Of a stretch of 32,747 bases of DNA, positions 10,598-24,666 are shown in pieces. The notes under the pieces were generated by a model. It saw only the letters and a list, made by a program, of their open reading frames with translations, searched no databases and was not told the origin of the DNA. A program made the translations under genes and the position numbers. The DNA comes from Treponema sp. Lineage in GTDB: Bacteria; Spirochaetota; Spirochaetia; Treponematales; Treponemataceae. Location: the NCBI GenBank assembly GCA_024683675.1, contig JAIKYB010000133.1, positions 1 through 32,747 of the forward strand. Reading direction: 5' to 3'. Each line of letters opens with the position of its first letter. The first letter of the stretch is position 1.

Positions 10598-12522
10598 GTG
10601 CGTTTTACAAGTTCAAAAAGTCTTTCGCGAGAAATGACAGTATAAATTGGTCGCCCGTGTGGACAATGAGGGTCTTGTAAAGTAAAGGCACTTTCTACCA
10701 GTCGGGCTGCTGTTTCATCATCCAGCACATAACCATCTTTTACTGCGGCTTTACATGCTGTCATTGCGGCTATAGAGCGAATAATTTCTTCCGGGGCGAC
10801 ATGCTTAACAAAAAGTAAGGTTTTTAAATCATATTCGCTTCCAGTCCATCTTTCAGGAATTGAAATTACTTCCCATAAACCATTTTGCCTGAACACAGTT
10901 TCGAAACCAATTGCATCTAGTGAAGGCTTTAACTTTTCCAGAAGCTTGTCTTGATTTTTAGATTCTGTGTTTATCTTATATGGTATTAAAAGCGGCTGTG
11001 ATTTTGCAGCGTTCTGTGAGTTCATCAGTTTATCAAAGAGAATTCTTTCATGAACGGCATGCTGGTCAATTATATAAAGACAATTATTTTTTTCGGCCAA
11101 AAGAAAGGTTCCTAAACAAGGACCTATGTATCGAACCTTCTGACTTTGAACCTGTGCTTTTATTTCTGTCTCTTCATTTTGTTTGAATAGAGCTTCTTCT
11201 GCCAGGGCTGCTGTGTCAAAGGAGGCTTTGTCGGTAGAAGATATTGTTGCAGAAGACATTTTTGTAGAAGAGGATAGTCCCAGATACTTGCTGCGGAAGT
11301 CTGAAACTGGTCTTTCATTATGACTGCTTGAAGGATATGTGGTATTTTTATAGCTTATATGCTTTTGATAACTGTCAGATTCTCCTTTTGCGGCAGGTGG
11401 CACTGTTGAAGTTGGCCTTTCAATTGAAGCAGAGCCTGCTATTGGATTATGATTTGGGATACTTGCCTGAAAATCAGCTTCTGGAATGGCTTCATCAGTT
11501 GGCTTGTCCTGCAAAAAATTCTGTCTTGTATAATTAAGGAAGAAGTTTTTGATAGTTGAACTTAATCCGTGATGTAAAGAAGAAATATCATAAAAGCGAG
11601 CTTCTTTTTTTGCGGGGTGAATATTAAAATCAACTAAATCAGCTTTAATCTGAATAAAAACGGCTGCGACAGGATATGTTCCATTTGGAAAGTATCCTTG
11701 ACCGCCATATTCAACGGCTTGTACCAGTGAATATTCCTGAATGCGTCTTCCGTTAGTATATATGTATATATCCTTCTTATTTGTTCTGGATACTGCAGGT
11801 TCGCCTATTACTACAGTGAATGCCCATTCCGGAGTGCTGCCACCACTTGTATTTGACAATTCATAAAATAAGACTGAATCTTCCTTGTAGGAGTTGGCAC
11901 TTATAAATCTATCTTTCAAACTTTGTCCTGCTGGAAGGTCTATTTTTTGTTCTCCGTCTTGTATAAAGCGAAAGGCAATGTCAGGACGTGCCATGGCTTT
12001 TTCTATAAAGGTATTTTTACACATTAGAGCTTCTGTTGCAGCTCTTTTTAAGAATTGTCGTCTGGCCGGAAAATTTTCAAATAGTCCTTCTGATTGAACT
12101 ATAGTTCCCTTTCTTTCAGCAACCTGTTCTAGAATATGGTCTTCTGTAATACTTGCCCTCATTTTCCAGCCACTACTGATGATTGAAAGGCGGGCAACTG
12201 CAGCAATAGAGGCCAAGGCTTCTCCGCGGAAACCTAATGTGGAAAGATTCATTAAATCCACTTCTGTTGCAATTTTACTTGTTGCGTGGGGGCGGGCACA
12301 ATTTTGCAAATCTTCTTTTGTCATGCCGCAGCCATCATCAATTATGCGGATTTTTTCTATTCCACCGCCGGCTATTTCTACGGTTATGCTTTTAGCTCCA
12401 GAATCGATTGCATTATCCATCAATTCACGAATAATTGCGTTTGGACGGTCAATGACTTCTCCAGCCGCAATTTTTCTTGCAACTTCCGGATTAAGGGTTT
12501 TTACAGGTTGCTGCAGACTCAT
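10594..12522 (-). CDS. mutL: DNA mismatch repair protein MutL
   Basis: MutL couples mismatch recognition by MutS to strand incision. The 642-residue product has the full GHKL ATPase: KIAAGEVIDRP, ELMDNAIDSGAK, DDGCGM and TLGFRGEAL. A variable linker (about residues 350-450) and the dimerisation/endonuclease domain follow. The endonuclease metal motif is DQHAVHERILFD at 486-497, where the last conserved Glu of DQHA(x)2E(x)4E is Asp. The supporting ACKAAVK (589-595) and CPHGRP (620-625) motifs are intact, so it is probably an active nicking MutL. It is translationally coupled to xseB by an ATGA overlap and ends in a four-base overlap with the convergent TPR gene. Confidence 0.97.
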   Translation of the reverse strand: MSLQQPVKTLNPEVARKIAAGEVIDRPNAIIRELMDNAIDSGAKSITVEIAGGGIEKIRIIDDGCGMTKEDLQNCARPHATSKIATEVDLMNLSTLGFRGEALASIAAVARLSIISSGWKMRASITEDHILEQVAERKGTIVQSEGLFENFPARRQFLKRAATEALMCKNTFIEKAMARPDIAFRFIQDGEQKIDLPAGQSLKDRFISANSYKEDSVLFYELSNTSGGSTPEWAFTVVIGEPAVSRTNKKDIYIYTNGRRIQEYSLVQAVEYGGQGYFPNGTYPVAAVFIQIKADLVDFNIHPAKKEARFYDISSLHHGLSSTIKNFFLNYTRQNFLQDKPTDEAIPEADFQASIPNHNPIAGSASIERPTSTVPPAAKGESDSYQKHISYKNTTYPSSSHNERPVSDFRSKYLGLSSSTKMSSATISSTDKASFDTAALAEEALFKQNEETEIKAQVQSQKVRYIGPCLGTFLLAEKNNCLYIIDQHAVHERILFDKLMNSQNAAKSQPLLIPYKINTESKNQDKLLEKLKPSLDAIGFETVFRQNGLWEVISIPERWTGSEYDLKTLLFVKHVAPEEIIRSIAAMTACKAAVKDGYVLDDETAARLVESAFTLQDPHCPHGRPIYTVISRERLFELVKRT

Positions 12523-12776
12523 CTTCTTGTTCCGTTTACCTGGCTATCGTCTGAAAATAAATCCATCTGAGGAGGATTATCTTTTGCCATTGGATTAGGT
12601 TCATTCATTAAAATCTGTATTTTTCCTTCTATTTTATCCAGCTGGCCTTCCATTCCTTTTGCCAGTTTAATTCCTTCTTCAAAATCTTTTAGAGCGTCTT
12701 CAAGTGAAATATCACTTCTTTTTATATCACCGGTAAGCTTTTCAAGCTTCTGTAAATTTTCTTCAAAGGTTGCCAT
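12519..12776 (-). CDS. xseB: Exodeoxyribonuclease VII small subunit
   Basis: XseB is the small helical subunit that binds several-fold around XseA to form exonuclease VII, which degrades single-stranded DNA to oligonucleotides. The 85-residue product shows the family pattern FEENLQKLEKLTGDI...ISLEDALKDFEEGIKLAKGME and a helical N-terminal half. The C-terminal tail (NPMAKDNPPQMDLF) is disordered-looking. It starts 11 bases after the xseA stop with an AGGAG site and overlaps mutL by four bases, forming an xseA-xseB-mutL repair operon. Confidence 0.95.
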   Translation of the reverse strand: MATFEENLQKLEKLTGDIKRSDISLEDALKDFEEGIKLAKGMEGQLDKIEGKIQILMNEPNPMAKDNPPQMDLFSDDSQVNGTRR

Positions 12777-12787
12777 ATTTTCTCCTC

Positions 12788-14005
12788 TTAATTTTCTGAA
12801 ATGCTTTCAACAACTGCTTTTATTTGTCCCTGGGCCGGAACAATTTTTATTTTTTGTCCTGCCTGCAGTTGACCTGCCTGGCGGATTATTTTTCCATCTT
12901 CACTGGTTACCATAGAGTATCCTCTTTTGAAGATTTCTTTTGGACTTGAATTTTCTAAAACTGTAATATTATTAGAAAGTTGGGTCCTTAAATCTTTAAT
13001 TTTATCCTTCATATTCTTTTCTAGATTTTCTCTGGCGCTTGCAAATCTGTTTAAGAGTGGCTGCTGGATATTTCGGAATCTGATTTCAAGGTTATCTGGA
13101 TTAAAGCTTCTGATTAAAAGTCTTTTTTGTTCAATCTTGTTGGTTATATTTGTATATAATTCCTCTTTATAAGCATTAATTGCAGCTTCAATATCTGTTT
13201 TTAGTGGTATAGCCATTTCTGCTGCTGCAGAAGGGGTTGGCGCACGACGGTCGGCTGCGTAATCACAAAGAGCCCAGTCTATTTCATGACCAACTGCAGA
13301 AATAACAGGAATGTGTGAAGCTGCTACAGAGCGAACAAGGCCTTCTTCACTAAAGGGCAAAAGATCTTCCAGGGAACCTCCGCCGCGCCCTACAATCAAT
13401 ACATCACATAAATCATAAAAGTTTGCAAGCTCAATCATTTTTATGATTGTTGCTGCGGCGCCTTCTCCCTGAACAATTGCCGGAAGAACTGTTATATTCA
13501 CTGATGGATTTCGCCTTTTTGCGACATTTAAAATATCTCGAATAGCGGCGCCTGTAGGACTTGTAACAACCCCTATAGTTTTTGGCATAAGAGGTAAGGG
13601 CTTTTTTCTTGCTTCATCAAAAAGTCCTTCTGCAGCAAGCTTCCTTTTTCTTTCTTCAAGCATCTGCAGAATATTTCCTATTCCGGCAAGTTCCATGCTG
13701 TTAACAATAATTTGATAGTTACCCTGAGGAGCATAAACAGAAAGACTTCCTGTACAGCGGACTTTATCTCCATCTTTTGGACGGAAGTTTAATTTGTAGG
13801 CTGCTCCCCTGAAAATAACTGCTTTTATCTGTGAAATATTGTCTTTAAGAGTAAAATAAATGTGCCCCGCGCCGCTTGGCCGCCAGTTTGAAATTTCACC
13901 TTCTATTATGATAGTTCTAAAGGAGCTTTCCAGTATTTCTTTGATAAGATCTGTTATTTGAGAAACCGTAAAGACAGTGTCTTGCGGTAAAATTGGACTG
14001 TTCAT
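12788..14005 (-). CDS. xseA: Exodeoxyribonuclease VII large subunit
   Basis: XseA is the catalytic subunit of exonuclease VII, involved in single-strand DNA processing during repair. The 405-residue product begins with the OB-fold DNA-binding domain (about residues 8-105, including EGEISNWRPSGAGHIYFTLKD). The catalytic core follows, with GVVTSPTGAAIRDIL, VGRGGGSLEDLLPFSEE and ISAVGHEIDWALCDYAADRRAPTPSAAAE. A coiled-coil (about 265-355) that docks XseB is next, and the C-terminus has the expected RGYSMV element. Length and motifs are typical. It is the first gene of the repair operon and divergent from the spiro-SPASM gene, with only 60 bases between starts. Confidence 0.97.
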   Translation of the reverse strand: MNSPILPQDTVFTVSQITDLIKEILESSFRTIIIEGEISNWRPSGAGHIYFTLKDNISQIKAVIFRGAAYKLNFRPKDGDKVRCTGSLSVYAPQGNYQIIVNSMELAGIGNILQMLEERKRKLAAEGLFDEARKKPLPLMPKTIGVVTSPTGAAIRDILNVAKRRNPSVNITVLPAIVQGEGAAATIIKMIELANFYDLCDVLIVGRGGGSLEDLLPFSEEGLVRSVAASHIPVISAVGHEIDWALCDYAADRRAPTPSAAAEMAIPLKTDIEAAINAYKEELYTNITNKIEQKRLLIRSFNPDNLEIRFRNIQQPLLNRFASARENLEKNMKDKIKDLRTQLSNNITVLENSSPKEIFKRGYSMVTSEDGKIIRQAGQLQAGQKIKIVPAQGQIKAVVESISEN

Positions 14006-14065
14006 TTTAATCCCAAGTTACTTTATTTTATCAACTTATTCAATGGATTGCCGATAAAGAAGTCG

Positions 14066-15592
14066 ATGAAAAGTATAGTAATTTTATATGAAAGCAAATC
14101 GGAATATGCAGAAGAAAAGGTTTTTGATAACAAATCTGCACTTGAAAAAACATATGCCTGGGCTCAGAAGTTTGCCAGTGATGATTGTATTATAAAGCTT
14201 ACTTCCTCTGACTCAGTTTGTCAGCTCTTGGAAAAAATGTCAGCACTTGCTTCAGAAAAGAAGGCTGACTATATAATTTTTGCTTATGATGACCTTCCTT
14301 TTATAAGTCAGTCAATAACTAATAATCTGATTGAACAGCATGTAAAATATCATTCAGAATATACTTTTTCAGATGGCTATCCATCGGGCTTTGCTCCGGA
14401 AATAATTGACAGTCAGGCTGTCAATATAATGGCTAAGCTTGCTGCTGGTAACTTGAAGGAAGCTGGTGCTAAGCCGCTTACAAGAGAAGGTCTTTACGCT
14501 TTTGTTAAAAACGATATCAATGCCTTTGAAGTAGAAACTTTGATCGCTGCCCATGATTGGAGACTTTATCGTTTTGCCTTTAACACTGGAACAAAGAGAG
14601 ATTTTCTTTCTTCCCTTGCTTTGGAAAAGGAAGCAAAAGCTTCTGGAATAGATATTGATAATCCGGATTGCTTAGCAGAGCTTGCAGCCTCCTCTGTTAG
14701 TGTACTAAAAACACTTCCTGCCTTTTATACAATAGAAATATGTAATCAGACAAAAAATCCTGCAATTTATAATCCACTGTCTTGTCAAAATTATAAAATA
14801 GAAGAAAAGAAAATGTCTTTTGAAAGTTTTTCTTCTCTAATAGACAATATTTCAGATTTCAGTGATGATGCAGTAATAGCACTTTCGTTAAATGGGGAAG
14901 CCTTCCTTCATCCGGATATTATAAAATTTGCTGAATGTGTGCTTGAGAAAGCTGAACTTTCCTTATTTATAGAAAGCGACGGCTTGAACCTTACAGAAAA
15001 CTTCTGTAGTGCACTTAAAAATATAGTTGAAAAAGCTCCTAAGTCATGTAAAAATCCATATCCAAAGTTAATGCTGGCACTTCAGTTGGATTCATTTTCT
15101 GAGGAAGGATATATAAAGGTCCATCCTGCTGCTTGTCAAGGTGATTACAATAAAGCAGTTCAAACTACAATCAATCTTGCTCAGCTTTTCCCGGGTGCCG
15201 TATATCCTCAATTTGTACGCATGAATGAAAATGAAGAGGAGCTGGAAGCTTTCTTCCGCTTTTGGTCTGAAAAAACAAGTCCAACTGGGGGAAACTGTCT
15301 TATTCAAAAATATGATGATATTGCAGGTCTTCTTCCTCCTCGTAAGCCGGCAGATCTTGCTCCTTTAAACAGATTTGTCTGCTGGCATTTACGACGGGAT
15401 ATGACAATTCTTGCTAATGGAGATTTTGTTTGCTGTAAGGCCTGTATGTTTGAAAAGCCATTAGCAAATGTCTTTGATGAAGATTTAGAAGCTGCATGGC
15501 ATAAAACAGATGACTTATTATCTTTACATATAGAAAATAAATTAAACGAAAAGTGCGGGAAATGTGATGAATTCTATACCTTTAACTTTTGA
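14066..15592 (+). CDS. Spiro-SPASM protein: nucleotidyltransferase-like domain, cysteine-less radical-SAM-like domain, SPASM domain
   Basis: This 508-residue protein matches the spirochaete-restricted spiro-SPASM family, whose function is not known to me. Residues about 1-150 look like an SpsF/IspD-type nucleotidyltransferase fold, with ADYIIFAYDDLPFI and DGYPSGFAPEIIDSQ. The middle (about 220-400) has the shape of a radical SAM barrel. Where CxxxCxxC should follow IEI(x)N there is NQTKNPAIYN, so the three cluster cysteines are missing. The C-terminal SPASM-like domain keeps cysteines at 439, 456, 457, 460, 497 and 500. It heads a tight operon of sugar-activation-type genes. I chose ATG 14066 over the track's TTG 14048; neither has a strong ribosome site. 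A binding or structural role is possible. Confidence 0.78.
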   Translation: MKSIVILYESKSEYAEEKVFDNKSALEKTYAWAQKFASDDCIIKLTSSDSVCQLLEKMSALASEKKADYIIFAYDDLPFISQSITNNLIEQHVKYHSEYTFSDGYPSGFAPEIIDSQAVNIMAKLAAGNLKEAGAKPLTREGLYAFVKNDINAFEVETLIAAHDWRLYRFAFNTGTKRDFLSSLALEKEAKASGIDIDNPDCLAELAASSVSVLKTLPAFYTIEICNQTKNPAIYNPLSCQNYKIEEKKMSFESFSSLIDNISDFSDDAVIALSLNGEAFLHPDIIKFAECVLEKAELSLFIESDGLNLTENFCSALKNIVEKAPKSCKNPYPKLMLALQLDSFSEEGYIKVHPAACQGDYNKAVQTTINLAQLFPGAVYPQFVRMNENEEELEAFFRFWSEKTSPTGGNCLIQKYDDIAGLLPPRKPADLAPLNRFVCWHLRRDMTILANGDFVCCKACMFEKPLANVFDEDLEAAWHKTDDLLSLHIENKLNEKCGKCDEFYTFNF

Positions 15593-16520
15593 TGAACATC
15601 AGATAAAAAGAACAGTTATAGGAGGCTCTGTAAATACAGCAGCGGACTGTCTTAATATATCTGTAATTTTATTAAATACCAGTGGAAGTCACTTAAAAAC
15701 TCATGTTTTTGAGAATCTTTTGGAATGTAAGTTTCAGTCCATAGTTTCTGTTGAACATGAGGCAGGTAATTTTTCCCTGGATGATATGTCCAAAAAGTTT
15801 CCTTCTATAAAATTTATTATTCCTTTGGAAAAAACTAGTGATGGTGAGCTCATAAATATTGCTATGAGTGAAATCAATTCTGATTATGTACTTGTGCTTA
15901 GAGACAGCCTGAATATTCCTGTAAGTACAATTCTTCCTCATCTAGCAGAAAATCTTACAGAGAATGGAAATTACTGTATTGTTCCAAGACTTTTTGATTC
16001 TGCAAAAAATGAATTGCCCTGTTCCTTCGTGCCGGCTTATAGTAAAGGGCATTTTTCTATAGAATCTTCAACTGCTATTTCTGATGGGGCAAAGACTCTT
16101 TATCCTTTTGATTATATTGGTCTTTATAATCGGGCAAAATTTATACAAATGGGGGGATTCGACTGGACCATTACAGCCCCCTATTGGCAGATTCTAGATT
16201 TATCAATGCGTTCCTGGCTTTTTGGAGAAAAGACACTTCTTACTTCCAAGCTGCAGTTTAATTATATAGAAGAACCTCCAGTTGAAGACAGAACCTCTAC
16301 CTTGAGTTATCTAAGATATTATTTGAAAAATGAATTACCAAGGATTCGATTTGGACAGGGGATAATAAAAAAACGTTCGTTTTTTACATTTTTTATGCGT
16401 TCTTCCTGCGGAATTCTTGAAGCTCAAAGACAATTTATGGCAGCCCGTTATTGGGTTGCAAAAAATAAATATAAATTCAATATGGATTTGCAAAAGCTTA
16501 TTGAAACTTGGAATGAGTAA
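15567..16520 (+). CDS. Family 2-like glycosyltransferase (GT-A fold), catalytic motif degenerate
   Basis: This 317-residue protein has a GT2-like layout: an opening strand ISVILLNTSG (about residues 30-39), SDYVLVLRDSLNIP where the DxD-containing strand is expected, and GGFDWTITAPYWQILDLSMRSWLFG (about 196-220). The last resembles the GGFDE...D.DL..R motif of GT2 enzymes. The metal-binding aspartates are only partly kept (LRDS), so activity is uncertain. The C-terminal part is basic and aromatic and might contact membrane lipid. The gene starts inside the end of the spiro-SPASM gene (26-base overlap) and its stop abuts the next ATG. GTG 15564 is an alternative start. A transferase role in the same sugar pathway is inferred. 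Confidence 0.62.
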   Translation: MNSIPLTFDEHQIKRTVIGGSVNTAADCLNISVILLNTSGSHLKTHVFENLLECKFQSIVSVEHEAGNFSLDDMSKKFPSIKFIIPLEKTSDGELINIAMSEINSDYVLVLRDSLNIPVSTILPHLAENLTENGNYCIVPRLFDSAKNELPCSFVPAYSKGHFSIESSTAISDGAKTLYPFDYIGLYNRAKFIQMGGFDWTITAPYWQILDLSMRSWLFGEKTLLTSKLQFNYIEEPPVEDRTSTLSYLRYYLKNELPRIRFGQGIIKKRSFFTFFMRSSCGILEAQRQFMAARYWVAKNKYKFNMDLQKLIETWNE

Positions 16521-19025
16521 ATGAAAACAGATAGAATTGTAATTGTTCAATGCAGACTTTCTTCTACACGGCTTCCCGGTAAGGCACTTATGACTCTTGG
16601 AAATAAGACTGTCCTGGATTGGGTATTAGCTTCTATGCATAAAATTCCCGCTGATTATTACTATGTGGCAACAGATGAAGCTTCTTATAATGAAATTCTT
16701 CCTGTATGCTCTAGAAATCAGTTTGATTGTTTTAAAGGAAGTCTTACTGATGTTCTCCAGCGCTTTGTTGATTTATTAAATACATTGCCTGCAAAAACTG
16801 TTATTCGAGCAACTGCTGATAATCCATTTTTATTTTATGAGGCTGCAGAAGAATCTGTAATAGACTTTGAAGAAAAAAATAAAAAATCAGGTCATTGTGA
16901 TTATCTTACTTATTCAGGTCTTCCTCATGGAAGCGGGGTAGAAATCTTTTCTGCAGATTCTCTTAAAAAAGCAATTGGTGAGACTGTAGATCCTTATGAC
17001 CATGAACATGTAGGGCCTGCATTATATAATCATCGTGACAAATATTCTTGTGAGTTTGTTCCTGCACCTCTTAAATATAACTTTCCTCAGCTTCGTTCTA
17101 CTATAGATACCTATTCTGATTATCTTCGTGCAATTTCTGTAGTAAATTATCTTGGAATAAAGGAAGAAGCCTATACTTATCAGGAGATTTTGGAGGCTTT
17201 GAATGCAAGCCAGGTAAAAAATCCGATTATTTATGCGCCTTCTGTTGAAAAAGGCCATGGAACCGGTCATCTTCACCGTTGTCTATCTGCCGCCTTATCT
17301 TCAAACGCTTTTGTTTACATGCCAAATGACAGAAGCTTAGCGGAATGCGATTCTATAATTGAAGCCTATAAAGAAAAAGGTCTTTCAGCTCAGCAGATTA
17401 TAAAAAAGCTTCCAGATGAATCTTATTTACCAGTTATCGTAACAGATGCCTTTTCTCTTCCATTACATAAATATGAAGAATTTAGGGTAAATAAGGCCCT
17501 TATTTCAATTGATGAAGCCTCTCCTTATTCCGATTTTAGTGATTATCTTTTGGATATAATTCCTTCTTACAAGCTGGAAAGAAGAGCAAACTTTTTTGCT
17601 CCATCATTAATTGAAAAGGCAAAGAATGTAAAAACAGAGCCTCAAAGCAAAGCTTCTCCCGTAAAATCAGTTTTAATTTGTCTTGGCGGTGAAGATCCTG
17701 CCGGGCTTACAATTCCAGCAGCAAAAATTGCCGCAAAATGTCTTCCTTCTGCTGAAATTACCGCAATTTGTCAGGCTCCGGAAGATTTTACCTTTGGCAA
17801 TGTTATTTTTTCGCCTCCTGTAAAGGATTTAAAAGAAAAACTCTACCAATATGACCTGGTTATAACTCATTACGGCTTAACAGCCTTTGAAGCTTTGTCT
17901 GCGGCTTGTAAAGTAATTCTTCTTCCAACAAGTCTTTTGCATGTAAAGCTTGCCGAAAAGTATTCTTTTGCACATCTTCCATGGGGGCCTCTTTCTGAAG
18001 CTTCCTTTAGAAAGGCATTAAATTCAGATGATATACTTCCTTCCTGGGAAAAATTGACCCGGTCTGCTACAGAGCCTGCTGCAAAATTAGCTTCTGAATC
18101 AGCTTCGGACTCAGAAAAGGAAAATCTGGCTTCCGTTATTTCAAAAATTGCTCAAGGACAGAGAATGCTTTGCCCAATATGTGGAAAGACACCTTCTCAG
18201 CCTGATCCAATTATTTCAAGAAATAAAAAAAGAACTTACCGGCGTTGTAAAAGCTGTGGCATGGTTTATATGTCCTTTAGCTGTGAAGAAGAAAAAAAAT
18301 ATCAAAAGGCTTATTTCTTTGAAGATTATAAAAAGCAGTATGGACGCACCTATGAAGAAGATTTTGATTCAATAAAAGCCCAGGGAAAAAGAAGAATTGA
18401 CAACATAAGAAGTATATGTTCCGGCTTTGATGATAAAAATATCCTTGATATCGGTTGTGCCTATGGTCCCTTCCTTGCCGCCGCATCTGATGCAGGCTTA
18501 AAACCCTTTGGAACTGACATTTCTCAGGATGCAATTTCTTATGTTCAGAATAAACTTTGTATTCCTGCTGTTACTTCAGCTTTTCCGGAAATTGATACAG
18601 AAAAGGAATTTGGACTTTCTCAATTTGATATTGTAACCATGTGGTATGTAATCGAGCATTTTAAAAATCTTGATGAGGTTTTAAGCAAGGTAAGTTCAAT
18701 TATTAAGAATGATGGAATATTTGCTTTTTCAACTCCATCAGGAGAAGGAGTTTCCGCATCCAGCAATTTGCATGCCTTCTATGAAAACAGTCCTACCGAC
18801 CATTTTACTGTCTGGGAACTTACAAAATGCGAAAATATTTTGAAAAAATATGGACTTCTTGTTGAAAAAATAGTTTCTACCGGTCATCATCCTGAACGCT
18901 TTCCTTCAATCAAAAAAAATAAAACACAAAAGGGAAGTTTGCGCTGGAATTTGATTGAAAAATACAGCAAACTAATGCGACTTGGTGATACTGTAGAAAT
19001 TTATTGTAGGAAAATTCAAAAATGA
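16521..19025 (+). CDS. Triple-domain fusion: SpsF-like cytidylyltransferase, PseG/SpsG-like hydrolase, zinc-ribbon SAM methyltransferase
   Basis: The 834-residue protein joins three enzyme-like domains. Residues about 1-235 are an SpsF/CMP-sugar synthetase-like nucleotidyltransferase: VQCRLSSTRLPGKAL, then RATADNPFL and GLPHGSGVEIF. Residues about 240-530 resemble the nucleotide-sugar hydrolase PseG/SpsG: GHGTGHLHRCLSAAL with its key His, LICLGGEDPAGLT and YDLVITHYGLTAFEAL. Residues about 551-834 hold a zinc ribbon (CPIC...CKSC) followed by a class I methyltransferase with motif I ILDIGCAYGPFL near 640. The first two activities are used in nonulosonic-acid-type and related CMP-sugar pathways; the third would methylate the sugar or intermediate. 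It directly abuts the gene before it and overlaps the ATP-grasp gene by four bases. Substrate is unknown. Confidence 0.82.
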   Translation: MKTDRIVIVQCRLSSTRLPGKALMTLGNKTVLDWVLASMHKIPADYYYVATDEASYNEILPVCSRNQFDCFKGSLTDVLQRFVDLLNTLPAKTVIRATADNPFLFYEAAEESVIDFEEKNKKSGHCDYLTYSGLPHGSGVEIFSADSLKKAIGETVDPYDHEHVGPALYNHRDKYSCEFVPAPLKYNFPQLRSTIDTYSDYLRAISVVNYLGIKEEAYTYQEILEALNASQVKNPIIYAPSVEKGHGTGHLHRCLSAALSSNAFVYMPNDRSLAECDSIIEAYKEKGLSAQQIIKKLPDESYLPVIVTDAFSLPLHKYEEFRVNKALISIDEASPYSDFSDYLLDIIPSYKLERRANFFAPSLIEKAKNVKTEPQSKASPVKSVLICLGGEDPAGLTIPAAKIAAKCLPSAEITAICQAPEDFTFGNVIFSPPVKDLKEKLYQYDLVITHYGLTAFEALSAACKVILLPTSLLHVKLAEKYSFAHLPWGPLSEASFRKALNSDDILPSWEKLTRSATEPAAKLASESASDSEKENLASVISKIAQGQRMLCPICGKTPSQPDPIISRNKKRTYRRCKSCGMVYMSFSCEEEKKYQKAYFFEDYKKQYGRTYEEDFDSIKAQGKRRIDNIRSICSGFDDKNILDIGCAYGPFLAAASDAGLKPFGTDISQDAISYVQNKLCIPAVTSAFPEIDTEKEFGLSQFDIVTMWYVIEHFKNLDEVLSKVSSIIKNDGIFAFSTPSGEGVSASSNLHAFYENSPTDHFTVWELTKCENILKKYGLLVEKIVSTGHHPERFPSIKKNKTQKGSLRWNLIEKYSKLMRLGDTVEIYCRKIQK

Positions 19026-20668
19026 AAGAAAATTGTTTAATACTTGGTGCCGGACTTATGCAGAAGCCGGCAATATTAAGTGCAAAAGAGCTTGGATATA
19101 AGGTATGTGTAGTTGATGCGGATGATAAGGCTGTCGCTATTTCTTATGCCGATGAATTCAAAAAAATTGATTTAAAGGATAAGGAAGGAATCTTAGAATA
19201 TGCAAAAAATCTAAAAGCCTCTGAAGCTGGATTAGCTGCTGTTTTTACCGCAGGTACAGATTTTTCAGCCAGTGTCAGCTATGTTTGTGAAAAACTAGAC
19301 CTTCATGCCCATTCTTACGAAGCTGCACTGAATGCAAGTATAAAAAACAGAATGAGACAATGCTTTGATGCGGCGAACGTTCCTTCTCCAGATTTTATGC
19401 ATTTAACAAAAGCTGATTTACAGGCTGATGATAAAGACGGAATGGAGCTTTTAAAAAAAGTTTTATCAAAGCTGGATTTTCCTTTTGTAGTAAAGCCTGT
19501 TGATAATATGGGTGCGCGTGGCTGCAGAATGGTAAGAAATGAAAAGGAATTTGTCCCTGCGATTACTAATGCAATTGAATGTTCCCGAACTAAAAGTGCA
19601 ATTCTTGAAAGCTATATGAAAGGCCAGGAATTTTCTATTGATGCCCTTGTTTATGATGGAAAATTTATTGTAACAGGTTTTGCCATTCGTCATATTGCTT
19701 ATGAGCCTTATTTTATAGAGCTTGGTCATACAATGCCGGCCCTGTTGGATACAAATACTCATGACCAGCTGATTTCTGTTTTTGCACTAGGAGCAAAGGC
19801 TCTTGGTCTTTCTTGTGGAGTAGCAAAGGCTGATATAAAATTTACTGATAAAGGCCCAATGATTGGAGAAATTGCTGCAAGACTTTCTGGCGGTTATATG
19901 TCAGGCTGGACTTTCCCTTATGCTTCAGATTTGAATCTTACAAAAGAAGCACTCTTAATAGCTTCGGGAAAAGCACCGGAAGAAGCCCTGTCTAGAGCTC
20001 AGCCAATTACCTTTACTCCTTCTGTTTTAACTGCAAATGCCAGTAAACCCTATGATTTGTATGAAGTTCCATGTAAACGAACAGCAGCCGAAAGAGCTTG
20101 GATTAGTATTCCCGGATCAGTAGAATATATAGAAAATATAAAAGAATATACCGATCGGGCCGTATTTGATGTTTTACCTAGAGCAACAGTTAGCCTTGGC
20201 GGACAGGTAGATTTCCCAAGAAATAACGTAGAAAAATGTGGAAATGTAATAGCAGTCAGTCACAGTAGAGAGGCTGCTATTATGGCTGCTCAGGACGCTG
20301 TTTCAAACATTTTTATTACCCTAAAGCCTGCTTGTGAAAAAACACAGGCCTTTCTGCAAGGATATGAAGATCCGTGCGAAGAAGGTTTTCCTCCTTCTGC
20401 CTATACAAAGCTTTCTCCTCTTGAAGAATCTTCTATAAAGGGGAATATTCCGGCAGATGCAAAAGTCGAAGATTTTATTCCAGAAGTCCTTAAAAACTCC
20501 GAATATATAAATAAGCAGGATTGGAATTATAATACTATTCTGCAGACAGCCCAAAAGTTTGACCTGCTTCGTCAGCATCATCCGGAGCTGCCGGCTCAAG
20601 CCTTTTGGAAGTCAATTTTACGTGGTGGAATACAGGGCGCCGTATATTTCAGCGATTCTGTAAAATAG
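19022..20668 (+). CDS. ATP-grasp ligase of unknown substrate
   Basis: This 548-residue protein starts with a Rossmann-like pre-ATP-grasp domain (LILGAGLMQKPAILSAKELGYKVCVVDADD, residues about 5-35). An ATP-grasp domain (about 110-320) contains FVVKPVDNMGARGCRMV, AILESYMKGQEFSID and IGEIAARLSGGYMSGWTFPY. It resembles the PurK/carbamoyl-phosphate-synthase-type carboxylate-amine ligases that couple an acyl phosphate to an amine. A C-terminal domain (about 340-548) is unrecognised. It overlaps the triple-fusion gene (ATGA) and ends eight bases before the amidase start, so it belongs to the same transcription unit. Attaching an amino acid or similar group to a sugar acid is a reasonable inference, but no substrate is shown. 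Confidence 0.82.
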   Translation: MKENCLILGAGLMQKPAILSAKELGYKVCVVDADDKAVAISYADEFKKIDLKDKEGILEYAKNLKASEAGLAAVFTAGTDFSASVSYVCEKLDLHAHSYEAALNASIKNRMRQCFDAANVPSPDFMHLTKADLQADDKDGMELLKKVLSKLDFPFVVKPVDNMGARGCRMVRNEKEFVPAITNAIECSRTKSAILESYMKGQEFSIDALVYDGKFIVTGFAIRHIAYEPYFIELGHTMPALLDTNTHDQLISVFALGAKALGLSCGVAKADIKFTDKGPMIGEIAARLSGGYMSGWTFPYASDLNLTKEALLIASGKAPEEALSRAQPITFTPSVLTANASKPYDLYEVPCKRTAAERAWISIPGSVEYIENIKEYTDRAVFDVLPRATVSLGGQVDFPRNNVEKCGNVIAVSHSREAAIMAAQDAVSNIFITLKPACEKTQAFLQGYEDPCEEGFPPSAYTKLSPLEESSIKGNIPADAKVEDFIPEVLKNSEYINKQDWNYNTILQTAQKFDLLRQHHPELPAQAFWKSILRGGIQGAVYFSDSVK

Positions 20669-20676
20669 GGGATTAT

Positions 20677-21711
20677 ATGAAACTGAAAAAAATCAATTTT
20701 TTTGCTCTATTTCTTTTTGGATTTCTTTTTAATCTTAATGCAGCAAATGACATTTCTCTTTTGGATAATTCAAAGAAAAGCGGAGTTTCAATTTATTGGG
20801 ATTCTCTTTCAGAAACAGGAATGCTTGAAAAAAATGATCATCATCTTTCTTTTAGAAGTGGAGAAGGCCTTGTTATCCTTGATGGCGTAAAAATGATGAT
20901 TACAGATGCGCCGGAGCTCAAAAATAATCAGATTTTAGTTTCAAAAAAATTCATAGATGATTCAGAAGAGTTCTTTTCACAAAAATCAGAGCTTCCTTTT
21001 AAGGTTGGCGCAATTTTAATTGATGCCGGTCATGGCGGAAAGGATCCTGGAGCCCTTAAAACCTATAAGGTAAATGGCAAAAACGTTACAATTCGTGAAA
21101 AAGATATTACCCTTAGAGTTGCAAAAATGCTTGGAGAAAAGCTGCGTTCTGCTTATCCTCAAAAACAGATAATTCTTACTCGTGATACTGATGTATTTTT
21201 ATCTTTAGGTGAACGTACTGATATTGCAAACAGCGTAAAGGTCGGTGAAAATGAAGCAGTTTTGTTTATTTCAGTTCATGTAAATTCATCTCTGAATAAA
21301 ACAAGCTCAGGTTATGAGGTATGGTATCTTTCTCCTGGTTATAGACGTACAGTTCTTGATCAATCTGCTGTTGGTGATGATAAAAGTCTCTTCCCGATTT
21401 TAAATTCAATGCTGGAAGAAGAATATACGACTGAAAGTATTATGATTGCCAAATTTATTATGGACGGACTTCAGGGACAGATTGGTAAAGAATCAGTTGC
21501 CAGAGGTATTAAGGCTGAAGAATGGTTTGTTGTAAAAAACTCTAATATGCCTAGTGTTTTAATTGAACTTGGTTTTGTATCAAATGAAAAAGAAGCTCTC
21601 CTGCTAAATGATGATAAATACTTGAAAAAAGCAACCCTTGGAATATATAATGGCATTGCAGCGTTTATAACGCACTTTGAACGTTCACAAGGATTTACTT
21701 CATTAAGATGA
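20677..21711 (+). CDS. N-acetylmuramoyl-L-alanine amidase (Amidase_3)
   Basis: This zinc amidase cleaves the bond between MurNAc and the peptide stem in the periplasm and takes part in cell separation or flagellar/envelope remodelling. I start it at ATG 20677 (344 residues), after an AGGGG site. This start gives a clean signal peptide ending near LNAA, unlike the longer ORF-track start that overlaps the ATP-grasp gene. The Amidase_3 domain (about 110-340) has zinc ligands H119 (DAGHGG), E141 (REKD) and H201 (SVHVN), plus the catalytic E297 (LIELGF). It follows the ATP-grasp gene by eight bases and overlaps the GerMN gene by four. From memory, T. pallidum has a similar amidase just upstream of its FlaA gene. 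Confidence 0.93.
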   Translation: MKLKKINFFALFLFGFLFNLNAANDISLLDNSKKSGVSIYWDSLSETGMLEKNDHHLSFRSGEGLVILDGVKMMITDAPELKNNQILVSKKFIDDSEEFFSQKSELPFKVGAILIDAGHGGKDPGALKTYKVNGKNVTIREKDITLRVAKMLGEKLRSAYPQKQIILTRDTDVFLSLGERTDIANSVKVGENEAVLFISVHVNSSLNKTSSGYEVWYLSPGYRRTVLDQSAVGDDKSLFPILNSMLEEEYTTESIMIAKFIMDGLQGQIGKESVARGIKAEEWFVVKNSNMPSVLIELGFVSNEKEALLLNDDKYLKKATLGIYNGIAAFITHFERSQGFTSLR

Positions 21712-22172
21712 TAAAAATTGATCTAAAAAAATATTTTCCTCAGATAATTATTGCTGTAATCACTTTAATTATACTAGTTATCTCTATAATTCTTTTTAAT
21801 ATTGGAAATGATAAACATAGAAGAATGTTTATTTTCCCTTCAGCTGATGCTGGAAAATACATAGTAGAATATAGAAATCTTGCAAAGAATCCTGTACAGG
21901 GTGATATTCAATTATACGTAGATGAAATATTGCTGGGCTCTGCAACAGAAAGAACAAAAATGTTATTTACTCCGGGAACTGTTGTCCGCTCTTGTTTTTT
22001 AAGAGATTCAGTTCTCTATCTGAATCTTTCACAAACCCTTATTGATATGGGAGAAGGGGTTATTGAAATTAAAGACGGCTTCGAGCTTCTCGAAAAAAAT
22101 ATAAAAAAGAATTTCCCGAAGATAAAAAAAGTAGAGTTTTTTATTGAAGGAAAATCTGTTTTTGAAAAGTAA
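21708..22172 (+). CDS. GerMN-domain membrane-anchored protein
   Basis: This 154-residue protein has a single N-terminal membrane helix (about residues 11-32) and a C-terminal domain resembling the GerMN (sporulation/germination GerM-like) fold. That domain has the pattern VQGDIQLYVDEILLGSATE and LYLNLSQTLIDMGEG. GerMN domains are extracytoplasmic and often partner with cell-wall hydrolases. That fits its ATGA overlap with the upstream amidase gene. It may recruit or regulate the amidase. No terminator is visible after it, so some readthrough into flaA is possible. Confidence 0.72.
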   Translation: MIKIDLKKYFPQIIIAVITLIILVISIILFNIGNDKHRRMFIFPSADAGKYIVEYRNLAKNPVQGDIQLYVDEILLGSATERTKMLFTPGTVVRSCFLRDSVLYLNLSQTLIDMGEGVIEIKDGFELLEKNIKKNFPKIKKVEFFIEGKSVFEK

Positions 22173-22178
22173 AAGTCG

Positions 22179-22207
22179 TTGACAAAATGCCCTAGTTATT
22201 AGATAAT
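22179..22207 (+). promoter_or_regulatory. Promoter of flaA
   Basis: TTGACA (22179-22184), a 17-base spacer and GATAAT (22202-22207) form a near-consensus sigma-70 promoter, not a sigma-28 flagellar one. The leader to the ATG at 22255 is about 40 bases and ends in AAGGAG. Confidence 0.8.
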
Positions 22208-22254: not shown

Positions 22255-23346
22255 ATGAAGAAGACTTTGGGTTTATTTGCAGCTGCTATGCTGCTTGTAG
22301 GTGGCGTTGCTTTTGCTGATGAAGCTATGCTCATCGATTTCACACTGTTGGATGCCGACTGTGCAGAAGATGAGAACGGAAATGCAACTCAGAACAGCCA
22401 TACTGTAATGGACTATTCCGTAAGTGCAGGTGCTACTTTCACAGAAGATCAGAAAGATCTTATGAAGACATCTCTCGCACTTCCAGAATGGGAAGTTAAA
22501 TTGAACTCATCTGCTAGAAATGTAATGAGTCTGGGTGATTCTCAGGTTGTTGCAGCACCAGTTAAGGGTGAAGCAGATGTTCCTTTTGCAGGTGGAAATG
22601 TAATGGGTGTACGCATTGAGTTCCCAACATGGAATTCTAACGCAAATGCTCGTATCGAACCTCCATTTGATATTCCGGCTTACGAGCCACTTTCAAGTGC
22701 TGACGAAAACGGTAATCGTCAGGAACCAACTGATGAAGAAAAAGCAAGTGGTAAAACACTTTTTGAAGATGGTTATGGTGTTGTAAAGAACGTAGCAACA
22801 ATCAAGGCTATCTCTGTTACTACAATGGGTATGAACTTCCCACATGGACTTTATGTAATTCTCTCTGATAATGACGGTGTAGAAAGACGTTATTTCATGG
22901 GATTCCTTGGATTTGACGGATGGAAAGAACTCCGTTGGAACAACCCACAGTATATTTCAGAAATCAGAAACCGCGAAATCCGCGTTTATCCAATCTATCC
23001 ACGTGGAATGCCATTTGTTAAGTTCAAGGGCTTCCAGGTAACTCGTGATGCTGCTCACATTGGTGGAACATTCATCGGTTACTTCAAGGATGTAAAGATT
23101 ATTTACGACAAGGCAATCCTTTCAACTGACCGCGATATCGCTGATGAAGACCTTTGGGGAATCATTACAAAGAAAGAAAACGCTCGTCAGAGTGCTGAAA
23201 TGTCAAGATTTGGTAACAAGCAGGTTAACCGCTACATCGAAAAAGCTAAGCTTGCTACAGAAGATGAGTTTACTTCAAGTTTGAACGAAGATTCTTCTTC
23301 TAATGCACAGAGCACAGATGGTGGAGCTGCAGATTCTGCTGAGTAA
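22255..23346 (+). CDS. flaA: Flagellar filament outer layer (sheath) protein FlaA
   Basis: FlaA coats the FlaB core of the periplasmic flagella of spirochaetes. The 363-residue product has a signal peptide (MKKTLGLFAAAMLLVGGVAFA, cut after residue 21), consistent with export to the periplasm. The mature protein shows spirochaete FlaA features: WEVKLNSSARN near residue 80, an aromatic-rich central part (GLYVILSDNDGVERRYFMGFLGFDGWKEL) and ISEIRNREIRVYPIYPRG. The C-terminus is acidic and serine-rich, longer than needed for the fold. It has its own promoter, a good ribosome site and a terminator. Codons look more biased than in neighbouring genes, as expected for an abundant protein. Confidence 0.95.
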   Translation: MKKTLGLFAAAMLLVGGVAFADEAMLIDFTLLDADCAEDENGNATQNSHTVMDYSVSAGATFTEDQKDLMKTSLALPEWEVKLNSSARNVMSLGDSQVVAAPVKGEADVPFAGGNVMGVRIEFPTWNSNANARIEPPFDIPAYEPLSSADENGNRQEPTDEEKASGKTLFEDGYGVVKNVATIKAISVTTMGMNFPHGLYVILSDNDGVERRYFMGFLGFDGWKELRWNNPQYISEIRNREIRVYPIYPRGMPFVKFKGFQVTRDAAHIGGTFIGYFKDVKIIYDKAILSTDRDIADEDLWGIITKKENARQSAEMSRFGNKQVNRYIEKAKLATEDEFTSSLNEDSSSNAQSTDGGAADSAE

Positions 23347-23415: not shown

Positions 23416-24666
23416 ATGGAAACACAAAATCTACTTTCAAAAAAACAAATCAAAGAAAACTACGAAGCATATAGAGAATATTTTACGGAAATTATGCAAA
23501 ATGTAGTTGAAATTCTTCAACAAAATGTAAAGCTTTCAGCACAGCCAACCTATAAAAGTCGTGTAAAAAGCTTTGACAGCTACTACAAAAAAGTATTAAG
23601 ACTCAAGCCGGATAAAGTTCAGGATGAGAATACCTTAATCTATCTTACTGATATGATGGGAATTCGAATGATCTGCGCCTTTCTTGAAGATATCAATTTT
23701 GGTCTTGAACAGATAAAAGGTCTCTTTGAAATTAAGGAAGTAGAAGTAAAGGGTGCAGAAAAGAAATTCAGTGAGTTTGGTTACGAATCAATTCATGTAC
23801 TTATCAAAATTCCAGAAAATTGCAAACCTGCTCTAGAAGGCAAATATAAGAATTTAAAAGCTATTTCTGATGAAATTGTTTGTGAAATTCAAATAAGAAC
23901 AATTTTACAGGATGCCTGGGCTGAAGTTGAACATGAATTAATCTATAAAACAGAATTTAATCCTTTTGATATTCCTTTAAGACGAAAGCTTGCTTCTATT
24001 AATGCTTCGCTTACTCTTGCTGATATTACATTCCAGGAAATCAGGGATTATCAGAATAAGCTTCAGAAGGCTCTTGATGAACGCCGACGTTCTTTCTATT
24101 CAATTGCAGATAATCTTTTGAATGAAGAAAATCAGGAAAATAATACAGAGGATATTTCTAGAGTTACTCCTTTTGTTCAGGGTACCATTGATGATCTTAT
24201 TTTACGTGCAATTCAGGCCCATAATGAAGGACGTTTACAGGAAGCTGTAGATATTTATTCTAGAATTATTGAAGCTGTTCCAGATTCAGATAAAAATGTT
24301 ATTGCAGTTATCAGAAAACATCGGGGAATGGCTTATTTTGCAATGAATAATCTGGAAGAAGCTCTTGAAGATTTCCAAAAGAGCATTGAAGCAGATCCAA
24401 AGGCATATCGTTCTTATTATTATGAAGGAATTGTGTATTCCATTCAAAAGAATTATAAAGAAGCTATTGATTGTTATTCAAAATCACTGGAAATAAATCA
24501 GTTTCAGGCTCATGCTAATTTTAGACGTGCTTTGGCTTATTATGAATTGCAGGAATATGAAAAATCTATGAATGATTTAAATGTGGCAATCAAGTTAGGC
24601 TTAAAACCAGAGGAGTGTGCTTCTCTGCAGGAAAAGCTTGTAAAACAATTTGGCATGAATATGTAA
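23416..24666 (+). CDS. RelA/SpoT-type (p)ppGpp synthetase domain fused to TPRs
   Basis: The 416-residue protein has a RelA/SpoT synthetase domain (about residues 45-180) of the small-alarmone-synthetase type. Motifs are intact: YKSRVKSFDSYYKK, LTDMMGIRMIC, FGYESIHVLI and EIQIRTILQDAWAEVEHELIYK. There is no HD hydrolase, TGS or ACT domain. A helical segment (about 190-230) leads into three to four TPRs (about 258-405), for example RSYYYEGIVYSIQKNYKEAI. It should make (p)ppGpp or a related alarmone from GTP/GDP and ATP, with the TPRs likely providing a protein-binding control input. The gene sits only 14 bases after the flaA terminator, without a clear promoter or strong ribosome site, so expression may be low. 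Confidence 0.87.
   Translation: METQNLLSKKQIKENYEAYREYFTEIMQNVVEILQQNVKLSAQPTYKSRVKSFDSYYKKVLRLKPDKVQDENTLIYLTDMMGIRMICAFLEDINFGLEQIKGLFEIKEVEVKGAEKKFSEFGYESIHVLIKIPENCKPALEGKYKNLKAISDEIVCEIQIRTILQDAWAEVEHELIYKTEFNPFDIPLRRKLASINASLTLADITFQEIRDYQNKLQKALDERRRSFYSIADNLLNEENQENNTEDISRVTPFVQGTIDDLILRAIQAHNEGRLQEAVDIYSRIIEAVPDSDKNVIAVIRKHRGMAYFAMNNLEEALEDFQKSIEADPKAYRSYYYEGIVYSIQKNYKEAIDCYSKSLEINQFQAHANFRRALAYYELQEYEKSMNDLNVAIKLGLKPEECASLQEKLVKQFGMNM

Follow-up and report, generated by a model that had tools for sequence, protein, structure and literature searches.

In the textbook route to pseudaminic acid (Pse), N7 of the sugar derives from a 4-amino group that is acetylated by PseH. The flagellin glycan of Treponema denticola described by Kurniyati et al. 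in 2017 is reportedly a nonulosonic acid in the pseudaminic configuration that bears a single acetyl group and, at N7, a 2-methoxy-4,5,6-trihydroxyhexanoyl group. For this structure we computed a residue mass of 274.116 + 176.068 = 450.185 (mono-N-acetyl Pse plus the methoxy-trihydroxyhexanoyl amide), and this amide-linked acyl group on mono-N-acetyl Pse fits the 450.2-Da glycan of the flagellin FlaB, without which, according to PMC9481697, filaments are not assembled and cells are not motile. An acyl group of this kind needs two activities, an amide-forming ligase and an O-methyltransferase. Candidate genes for both were found in a row of six genes upstream of flaA in a Treponema sp. (GenBank GCA_024683675.1), in the window of 32,747 nt formed by contig JAIKYB010000133.1, here contig C241 of genome G000, a 2.4-Mb metagenome-assembled genome of 79.65% completeness. 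We propose that this row is probably an operon of the late-flagellar (sigma28) class whose enzymes synthesise and modify the nonulosonic acid carried by spirochaete flagellins. T. denticola belongs to the same bacterial family, and the pathway genes described below are also present in T. denticola-like genomes. Our literature search found no paper assigning the operon, its ATP-grasp ligase or its spiroSPASM protein to the T. denticola glycan; the 2017 work of Kurniyati et al. may already do so.

Outside the spirochaetes, the sfmABCDE genes of Shewanella oneidensis have a predicted FliA/sigma28 promoter and encode an S-adenosylmethionine (SAM) methyltransferase and an ATP-grasp_4 ligase; their product is Pse with one acetyl group (274 Da) to which an O-methylated substituent is attached, and loss of the ligase leaves the filament in place with a flagellin mass shift slightly smaller than that of other losses (PMC3765264). 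The Treponema locus resembles sfm in its predicted FliA promoter, methyltransferase and ATP-grasp_4 ligase, the ligases being likened by domain and not by homology, whereas sfm has, instead of a fusion protein, a spiroSPASM protein and a GT-A gene, a thiamine pyrophosphate enzyme and an acyl reductase, and is unlinked to a sheath protein gene. By analogy, sfm can be regarded as an independent precedent for the methyltransferase/ATP-grasp pair. The di-O-methylglyceroyl Pse of Campylobacter jejuni (Cj1295) likewise places an O-methylated hydroxy acid on a Pse amino group of flagellin, but there the acyl group sits at N5, the acid has three carbons and an aminopeptidase-like protein helps (PMC3068675). 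Compared with the PseB-C-H-G-I-F and Maf system of Campylobacter and Helicobacter, the locus and its genome have Maf and counterparts resembling PseB, PseC, PseG, PseI and PseF, whereas PseH was not found, the PseF, PseG and methyltransferase parts are fused, and the scores fall below the equivalog cut-offs.

The six tightly packed open reading frames (ORFs) occupy 14066-22172 on the plus strand. From first to last their junctions are a 26-nt overlap, no gap, a 4-nt overlap, an 8-nt gap and a 4-nt overlap, and 82 nt separate the last gene from flaA (22255-23346, plus strand; PF04620, 258 bits), which encodes the flagellar filament sheath protein. The ORF coordinates thus agree with a sequence-only reading of the window, which had described six genes joined by overlaps or gaps of at most eight bases and followed by flaA, and profile searches and a GT-A fold model agree with its gene identities (SPASM, GT2-like, an SpsF/PseG-like/methyltransferase fusion, ATP-grasp, amidase and GerMN). 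The spiroSPASM gene (14066-15592) matches TIGR04321 with 475 bits (cut-off 250) and is followed by the GT2-like gene (15567-16520) and the fusion gene (16521-19025; CTP_transf_3, a weak PseG match and Methyltransf_23). Within the fusion, residues 1-230 (16521-17210) form a PseF/NeuA/SpsF-like cytidylyltransferase (CTP_transf_3, 100 bits; PDB 6oew, E 1e-21). Residues 238-535 (17232-18125) form a PseG-like hydrolase domain with a weak TIGR03590 match (19.7 bits, below the cut-off of 153.6) and a conserved GxGHxxR motif (G247, G249, H250, R253). Residues 540-834 (18138-19022) combine a zinc ribbon (CPxC...CxxC; C551, C554, C576 and C579 conserved in at least 95%) with a SAM methyltransferase (Methyltransf_23, 72 bits). 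The next gene (19022-20668) encodes an ATP-grasp carboxylate-amine ligase with an ATP-grasp_4 domain (56 bits), an L-amino-acid-ligase C-domain (LAL_C2, at its cut-off), many conserved residues and PDB matches to 4dim and to 3vot, an L-amino acid ligase. Last come the gene for an N-acetylmuramoyl-L-alanine amidase (20677-21711, ATG at 20677; Amidase_3, 158 bits), whose N-terminus carries a signal-like segment, and that for a GerMN-domain membrane protein (21708-22172; Germane, 29.6 bits). Both look like envelope genes rather than sugar genes, an amendment to the sugar-modification operon first proposed; the amidase was considered as a sugar amidase and rejected, being a cell-wall Amidase_3. 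Downstream of flaA, a gene with a RelA/SpoT-like synthetase domain and TPR (23416-24666) follows in 35 of 41 collected family sequences; we know of no flagellar link for it.

A predicted sigma28-type promoter precedes the first gene (14031-14057, plus strand), with a -35-like TCAA at 14031-14034, a 15-nt spacer and a perfect -10 element, GCCGATAA, at 14050-14057, 8 nt upstream of the spiroSPASM ATG. An initial scan found at most one mismatch to the sigma28 motif in 56/77 loci, compared with 13.8% of random windows. A relaxed motif was found near the spiroSPASM start in 62/77 loci, as opposed to 0-4% at control genes (xseA 0/40, mutL 1/32, GT2 3/69, fusion 3/77), counts that are not independent because the loci are related; further genes gave intermediate numbers (ATP-grasp 15/71, amidase 8/69, RelA/TPR 7/52). 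TAAA/TTAA-N15-GCCGATAA is hence enriched before the first gene over the controls, and a T-T-A/T-A element about 15 nt upstream of the -10 recurs across loci. In these genomes similar sigma28-type sites also precede several flagellin genes (L241, L243, L246, L247), and the mapped promoter of T. denticola flaB2 has -10 CCGATAA and -35 TTAA (PMC9481697). The operon thus seems to be expressed together with late flagellar genes, from a predicted sigma28-type promoter. Elsewhere in G000, on C195 (L203:3273), a perfect GCCGATAA lies 31 nt upstream of the first gene in a row with two Maf genes. flaA has a predicted sigma70-type promoter of its own (TTGACA-17-GATAAT, 22179-22207, plus strand), found by motif scan and conservation: the site matches at 10 or more of 12 positions in 56/67 loci, versus 0-2 of about 70 upstream of genes inside the row. 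A plain sigma70 scan of the region gave 35 sites versus 28.9 in shuffles, a small excess, and the conserved site alone was retained. With this site in the GerMN-flaA interval, flaA could be expressed independently of the promoter at the head of the operon, and the idea that its expression requires that promoter was dropped. For T. denticola, a sigma70 transcript has been reported that carries flaA together with the four ORFs preceding it (PMC9481697).

The order spiroSPASM-GT2-fusion-ATP-grasp-amidase-GerMN-flaA is kept in 36/40 Treponemataceae loci and recurs in most sampled Spirochaetia families outside the Treponemataceae, where the cytidylyltransferase is usually a gene of its own. Comparison across relatives, which the sequence-only reading had called for, thus reveals a gene order preserved far beyond chance, and the row before flaA appears to be an old, spirochaete-wide operon. 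The fusion gene is found in 86/86 good Treponemataceae genomes. In the four exceptions (L041, L053, L054, L055), which belong to T. pallidum- or T. denticola-like lineages, the first three genes alone stay together and the ligase is placed elsewhere; in G033, ligase-amidase-GerMN-flaA form a second cluster. Adjacency to flaA as a universal rule was accordingly rejected. In some deeper lineages (G118, G120, G131, G132) neither the GT-A nor the ATP-grasp gene is part of the locus, which reads spiroSPASM-cytidylyltransferase-PseG/methyltransferase-amidase-GerMN-flaA.

The sequence-only reading had noted the lack of NeuB-like or dehydratase genes in the window and placed them elsewhere in the genome, where we indeed found them. 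A NeuB/PseI homologue lies on C208 of G000 (NeuB PF03102, 197 bits), and NeuB occurs in 86/86 Treponemataceae genomes. A PseB-like dehydratase (best NCBIfam match PseB, 167 bits, cut-off 407.8) and a PseC-like aminotransferase (best NCBIfam match PseC, 330 bits, cut-off 423.5), both over their Pfam cut-offs, are encoded by adjoining genes on C234, and the pair is adjacent in G020 as well. Synthase and CMP-transferase are both present, with matches to the Neu and the Pse subtype each under the equivalog cut-off. At least four PF01973 (Maf) matches over the cut-off were found in 8/8 genomes, with one extra match below it in G003; G000 has four Maf-family genes. The closed genome G020, of only 1,139,633 bases (1.14 Mb), has kept homologues of PseB, PseC, NeuB/PseI and Maf. 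Genes resembling every pathway class but PseH were thus found; the PseH profile matched nothing in either G000 or G020 and nothing above its cut-off in 20 genomes, this search returning generic GNATs below the cut-off in most genomes. Directly after the PseC-like gene we observed a molybdopterin-hydroxylase-like gene in 6/6 genomes (L200, L201, L202, L215, L142, L143), which lies at C234 3259-6819 in G000 (L200) and diverges fast (24-34% identity); in L200, L201 and L202, genes for 2Fe-2S and FAD domains lie beside it.

Retention of the operon in spirochaetes without flagella, which would speak against a flagellar role, was not seen in the one flagellin-less genus examined, a genus of family f8 in which all 7 genomes lack both flagellin and the fusion gene. 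In its sister genus, flagellin was present in 3/3 genomes and the fusion in 2/3. The joint absence in f8 probably reflects one evolutionary event, not many. The earlier suggestion of a pathway aimed at flagellar or envelope proteins is supported for the flagellar target by the synteny with flaA, the sigma28-type motif, the distant PseB-, PseC-, NeuB- and Maf-like genes, the absence of the fusion from flagellin-less relatives and the T. denticola glycan chemistry.

From the gene content we infer the substrates, the order of steps and the roles of the ligase and the methyltransferase as follows. The PseB-like dehydratase and PseC-like aminotransferase, encoded elsewhere, would yield a UDP-2-acetamido-4-amino sugar, to whose 4-amino group the ATP-grasp ligase would join a hydroxylated hexonic acid through an amide bond, replacing PseH. 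The PseG-like part of the fusion would then remove UDP, the distant NeuB/PseI would condense the sugar with phosphoenolpyruvate, and the cytidylyltransferase part would form the CMP sugar, while the fused methyltransferase would O-methylate the acyl group (or the sugar). Maf transferases would finally attach the sugar to FlaB in the cytoplasm before export, and FlaB flagellins, via Maf, seem a more likely target than FlaA itself; in the Aeromonas Maf model glycosylation precedes export (PMC4065374). That the ATP-grasp enzyme may replace PseH is suggested because PseH was not found. Of the methylated, possibly amidated sugar pathway first envisaged, the pathway is retained, and "amidated" is best read as an acyl group amide-linked by the ATP-grasp ligase. 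The present analysis adds the predicted sigma28-type promoter, the evidence for how deeply the row is conserved, the pathway genes outside the window and the proposed ATP-grasp stand-in for PseH.

The first two proteins of the operon fit less readily into known pathways. AlphaFold2 models, Foldseek searches and alignments revealed that spiroSPASM consists of a CMP-sugar-synthetase-like N-domain and a radical-SAM-like barrel, lacking CX3CX2C, with a SPASM domain. The N-domain resembles the cytidylyltransferase of the fusion (hhalign probability 95.3, E 2e-8) and matches 6oew in Foldseek, and it lacks the RxSxRLPGK loop. The body has a partial TIM barrel with a SPASM fold (PF13186, 27 bits; Foldseek matches to SuiB, SkfB, EpeE and BtrN). 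In alignment, the CX3CX2C cluster motif was not found in the spiroSPASM of the examined locus, whereas it is present in 31/78 family members; on the tree its distribution needs 8 changes, at least 6 of them on well-supported branches, and as regain is unlikely, the radical-SAM cluster has probably been lost repeatedly. A C-terminal WHLRRDM...CDEYYTFNF stretch is retained in most copies. One copy, L048 (G116, 11541-13262), is even without most of the SPASM cysteines, the remaining protein being kept. The name of TIGR04321, the NCBIfam family to which gene 1 belongs by score, implies no function, and the family is here placed in a predicted sigma28-linked flagellar sugar operon. A bolder version of the pathway, which we put forward tentatively and consider more likely wrong than right, is that spiroSPASM with an intact cluster acts chemically on the CMP-bound sugar or on the acyl group of that sugar, whereas in many lineages, this locus included, it serves as a cluster-less scaffold or carrier that holds the pathway together, with the ATP-grasp enzyme in place of PseH. 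The product of gene 2 had no Pfam or NCBIfam match; its AlphaFold2 model (pLDDT 89.8) has a GT-A fold with ppGalNAc-T as the best Foldseek match (E 2e-11, TM about 0.55-0.65), and the DXD motif is variable in alignment, reading RDS in the examined locus.

Several observations weigh against a flagellin sugar operon as proposed here. The PseB, PseC, PseG and NeuB/PseI matches all lie below the curated equivalog cut-offs, for which reason the sugar configuration is not fixed by sequence, and many treponemes carry further NeuB copies. The absence of PseH from G000 is weak evidence on its own, because the assembly is incomplete. T. denticola-like genomes have the ligase and flaA apart from the first three genes, and several deeper lineages have the PseG-methyltransferase fusion without an adjoining ATP-grasp gene, so that methylation is not tied to the ligase; strict coupling of the two enzymes was not upheld in deep lineages. 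The flagellated sister genome G261 (genus g96) gave no fusion gene, an absence that is unsure because this genome is 90% complete, in 250 contigs and with 7% contamination. Borrelia-like genomes carry flagellin without the operon, fusion and spiroSPASM both being absent. We infer that Borrelia burgdorferi, from which sigma28 is reported absent (PMC11607428), corresponds to this flagellated lineage.

Part of this evidence bears on an alternative in which the operon serves a flagellin sugar pathway, but the ATP-grasp and methyltransferase enzymes act on something else, for example in amino-acid ligation or sugar-ring methylation, and N-7 is acylated by an unrecognised GNAT acetyltransferase-type enzyme. 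The fusions without an adjoining ligase gene would suit it, as would the generic sub-threshold GNATs and the ligation of amino acids by related ATP-grasp enzymes. We nevertheless think it unlikely, given that neither G000 nor the reduced G020 has a PseH-like match, that the Shewanella precedent has the same enzyme pair, and that the ligase is found in 14/14 family genomes searched even where relocated, though its copy in the T. denticola-like genome G063 is broken by stops (C1:2556717-2558148, L075, an ATP-grasp homologue apparently interrupted by stop codons). An envelope or exopolysaccharide operon, transferring a CMP-nonulosonic acid onto a surface polysaccharide or lipid with flaA a mere neighbour, would account for the envelope-type amidase and GerMN proteins, the GT-A glycosyltransferase-like protein, the extra NeuB copies and the separate conserved promoter of flaA. 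It would leave unexplained why a sigma28-type promoter motif heads the row, why flagellin-less genomes are without the fusion, why there are four Maf genes and why the T. pallidum-sized G020 keeps the whole set, and we judge it less likely still; T. pallidum is not known to have lipopolysaccharide. An ordinary housekeeping cluster without functional link, preserved in a slowly rearranging region near xseA and mutL, is highly improbable, for although these two genes flank the row in many loci, families in which they do not adjoin it have the same gene order, neighbouring genes of the row overlap, and it is only the first gene that is marked by the sigma28 motif.

A flagellin sugar operon under late-flagellar control would provide named candidate genes for steps in the synthesis of an unusual flagellin sugar that is reported to be essential for flagellar assembly and motility in T. 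denticola, and would tie sugar genes to flagellar gene control across the phylum. It would extend to T. pallidum-sized genomes, which are hard to study genetically, and would turn the uncharacterised spiroSPASM family into a testable member of the pathway. If the assignment is true, spiroSPASM would be a new kind of protein, in which a CMP-nonulosonate-synthetase-like domain is joined to a radical-SAM/SPASM body.

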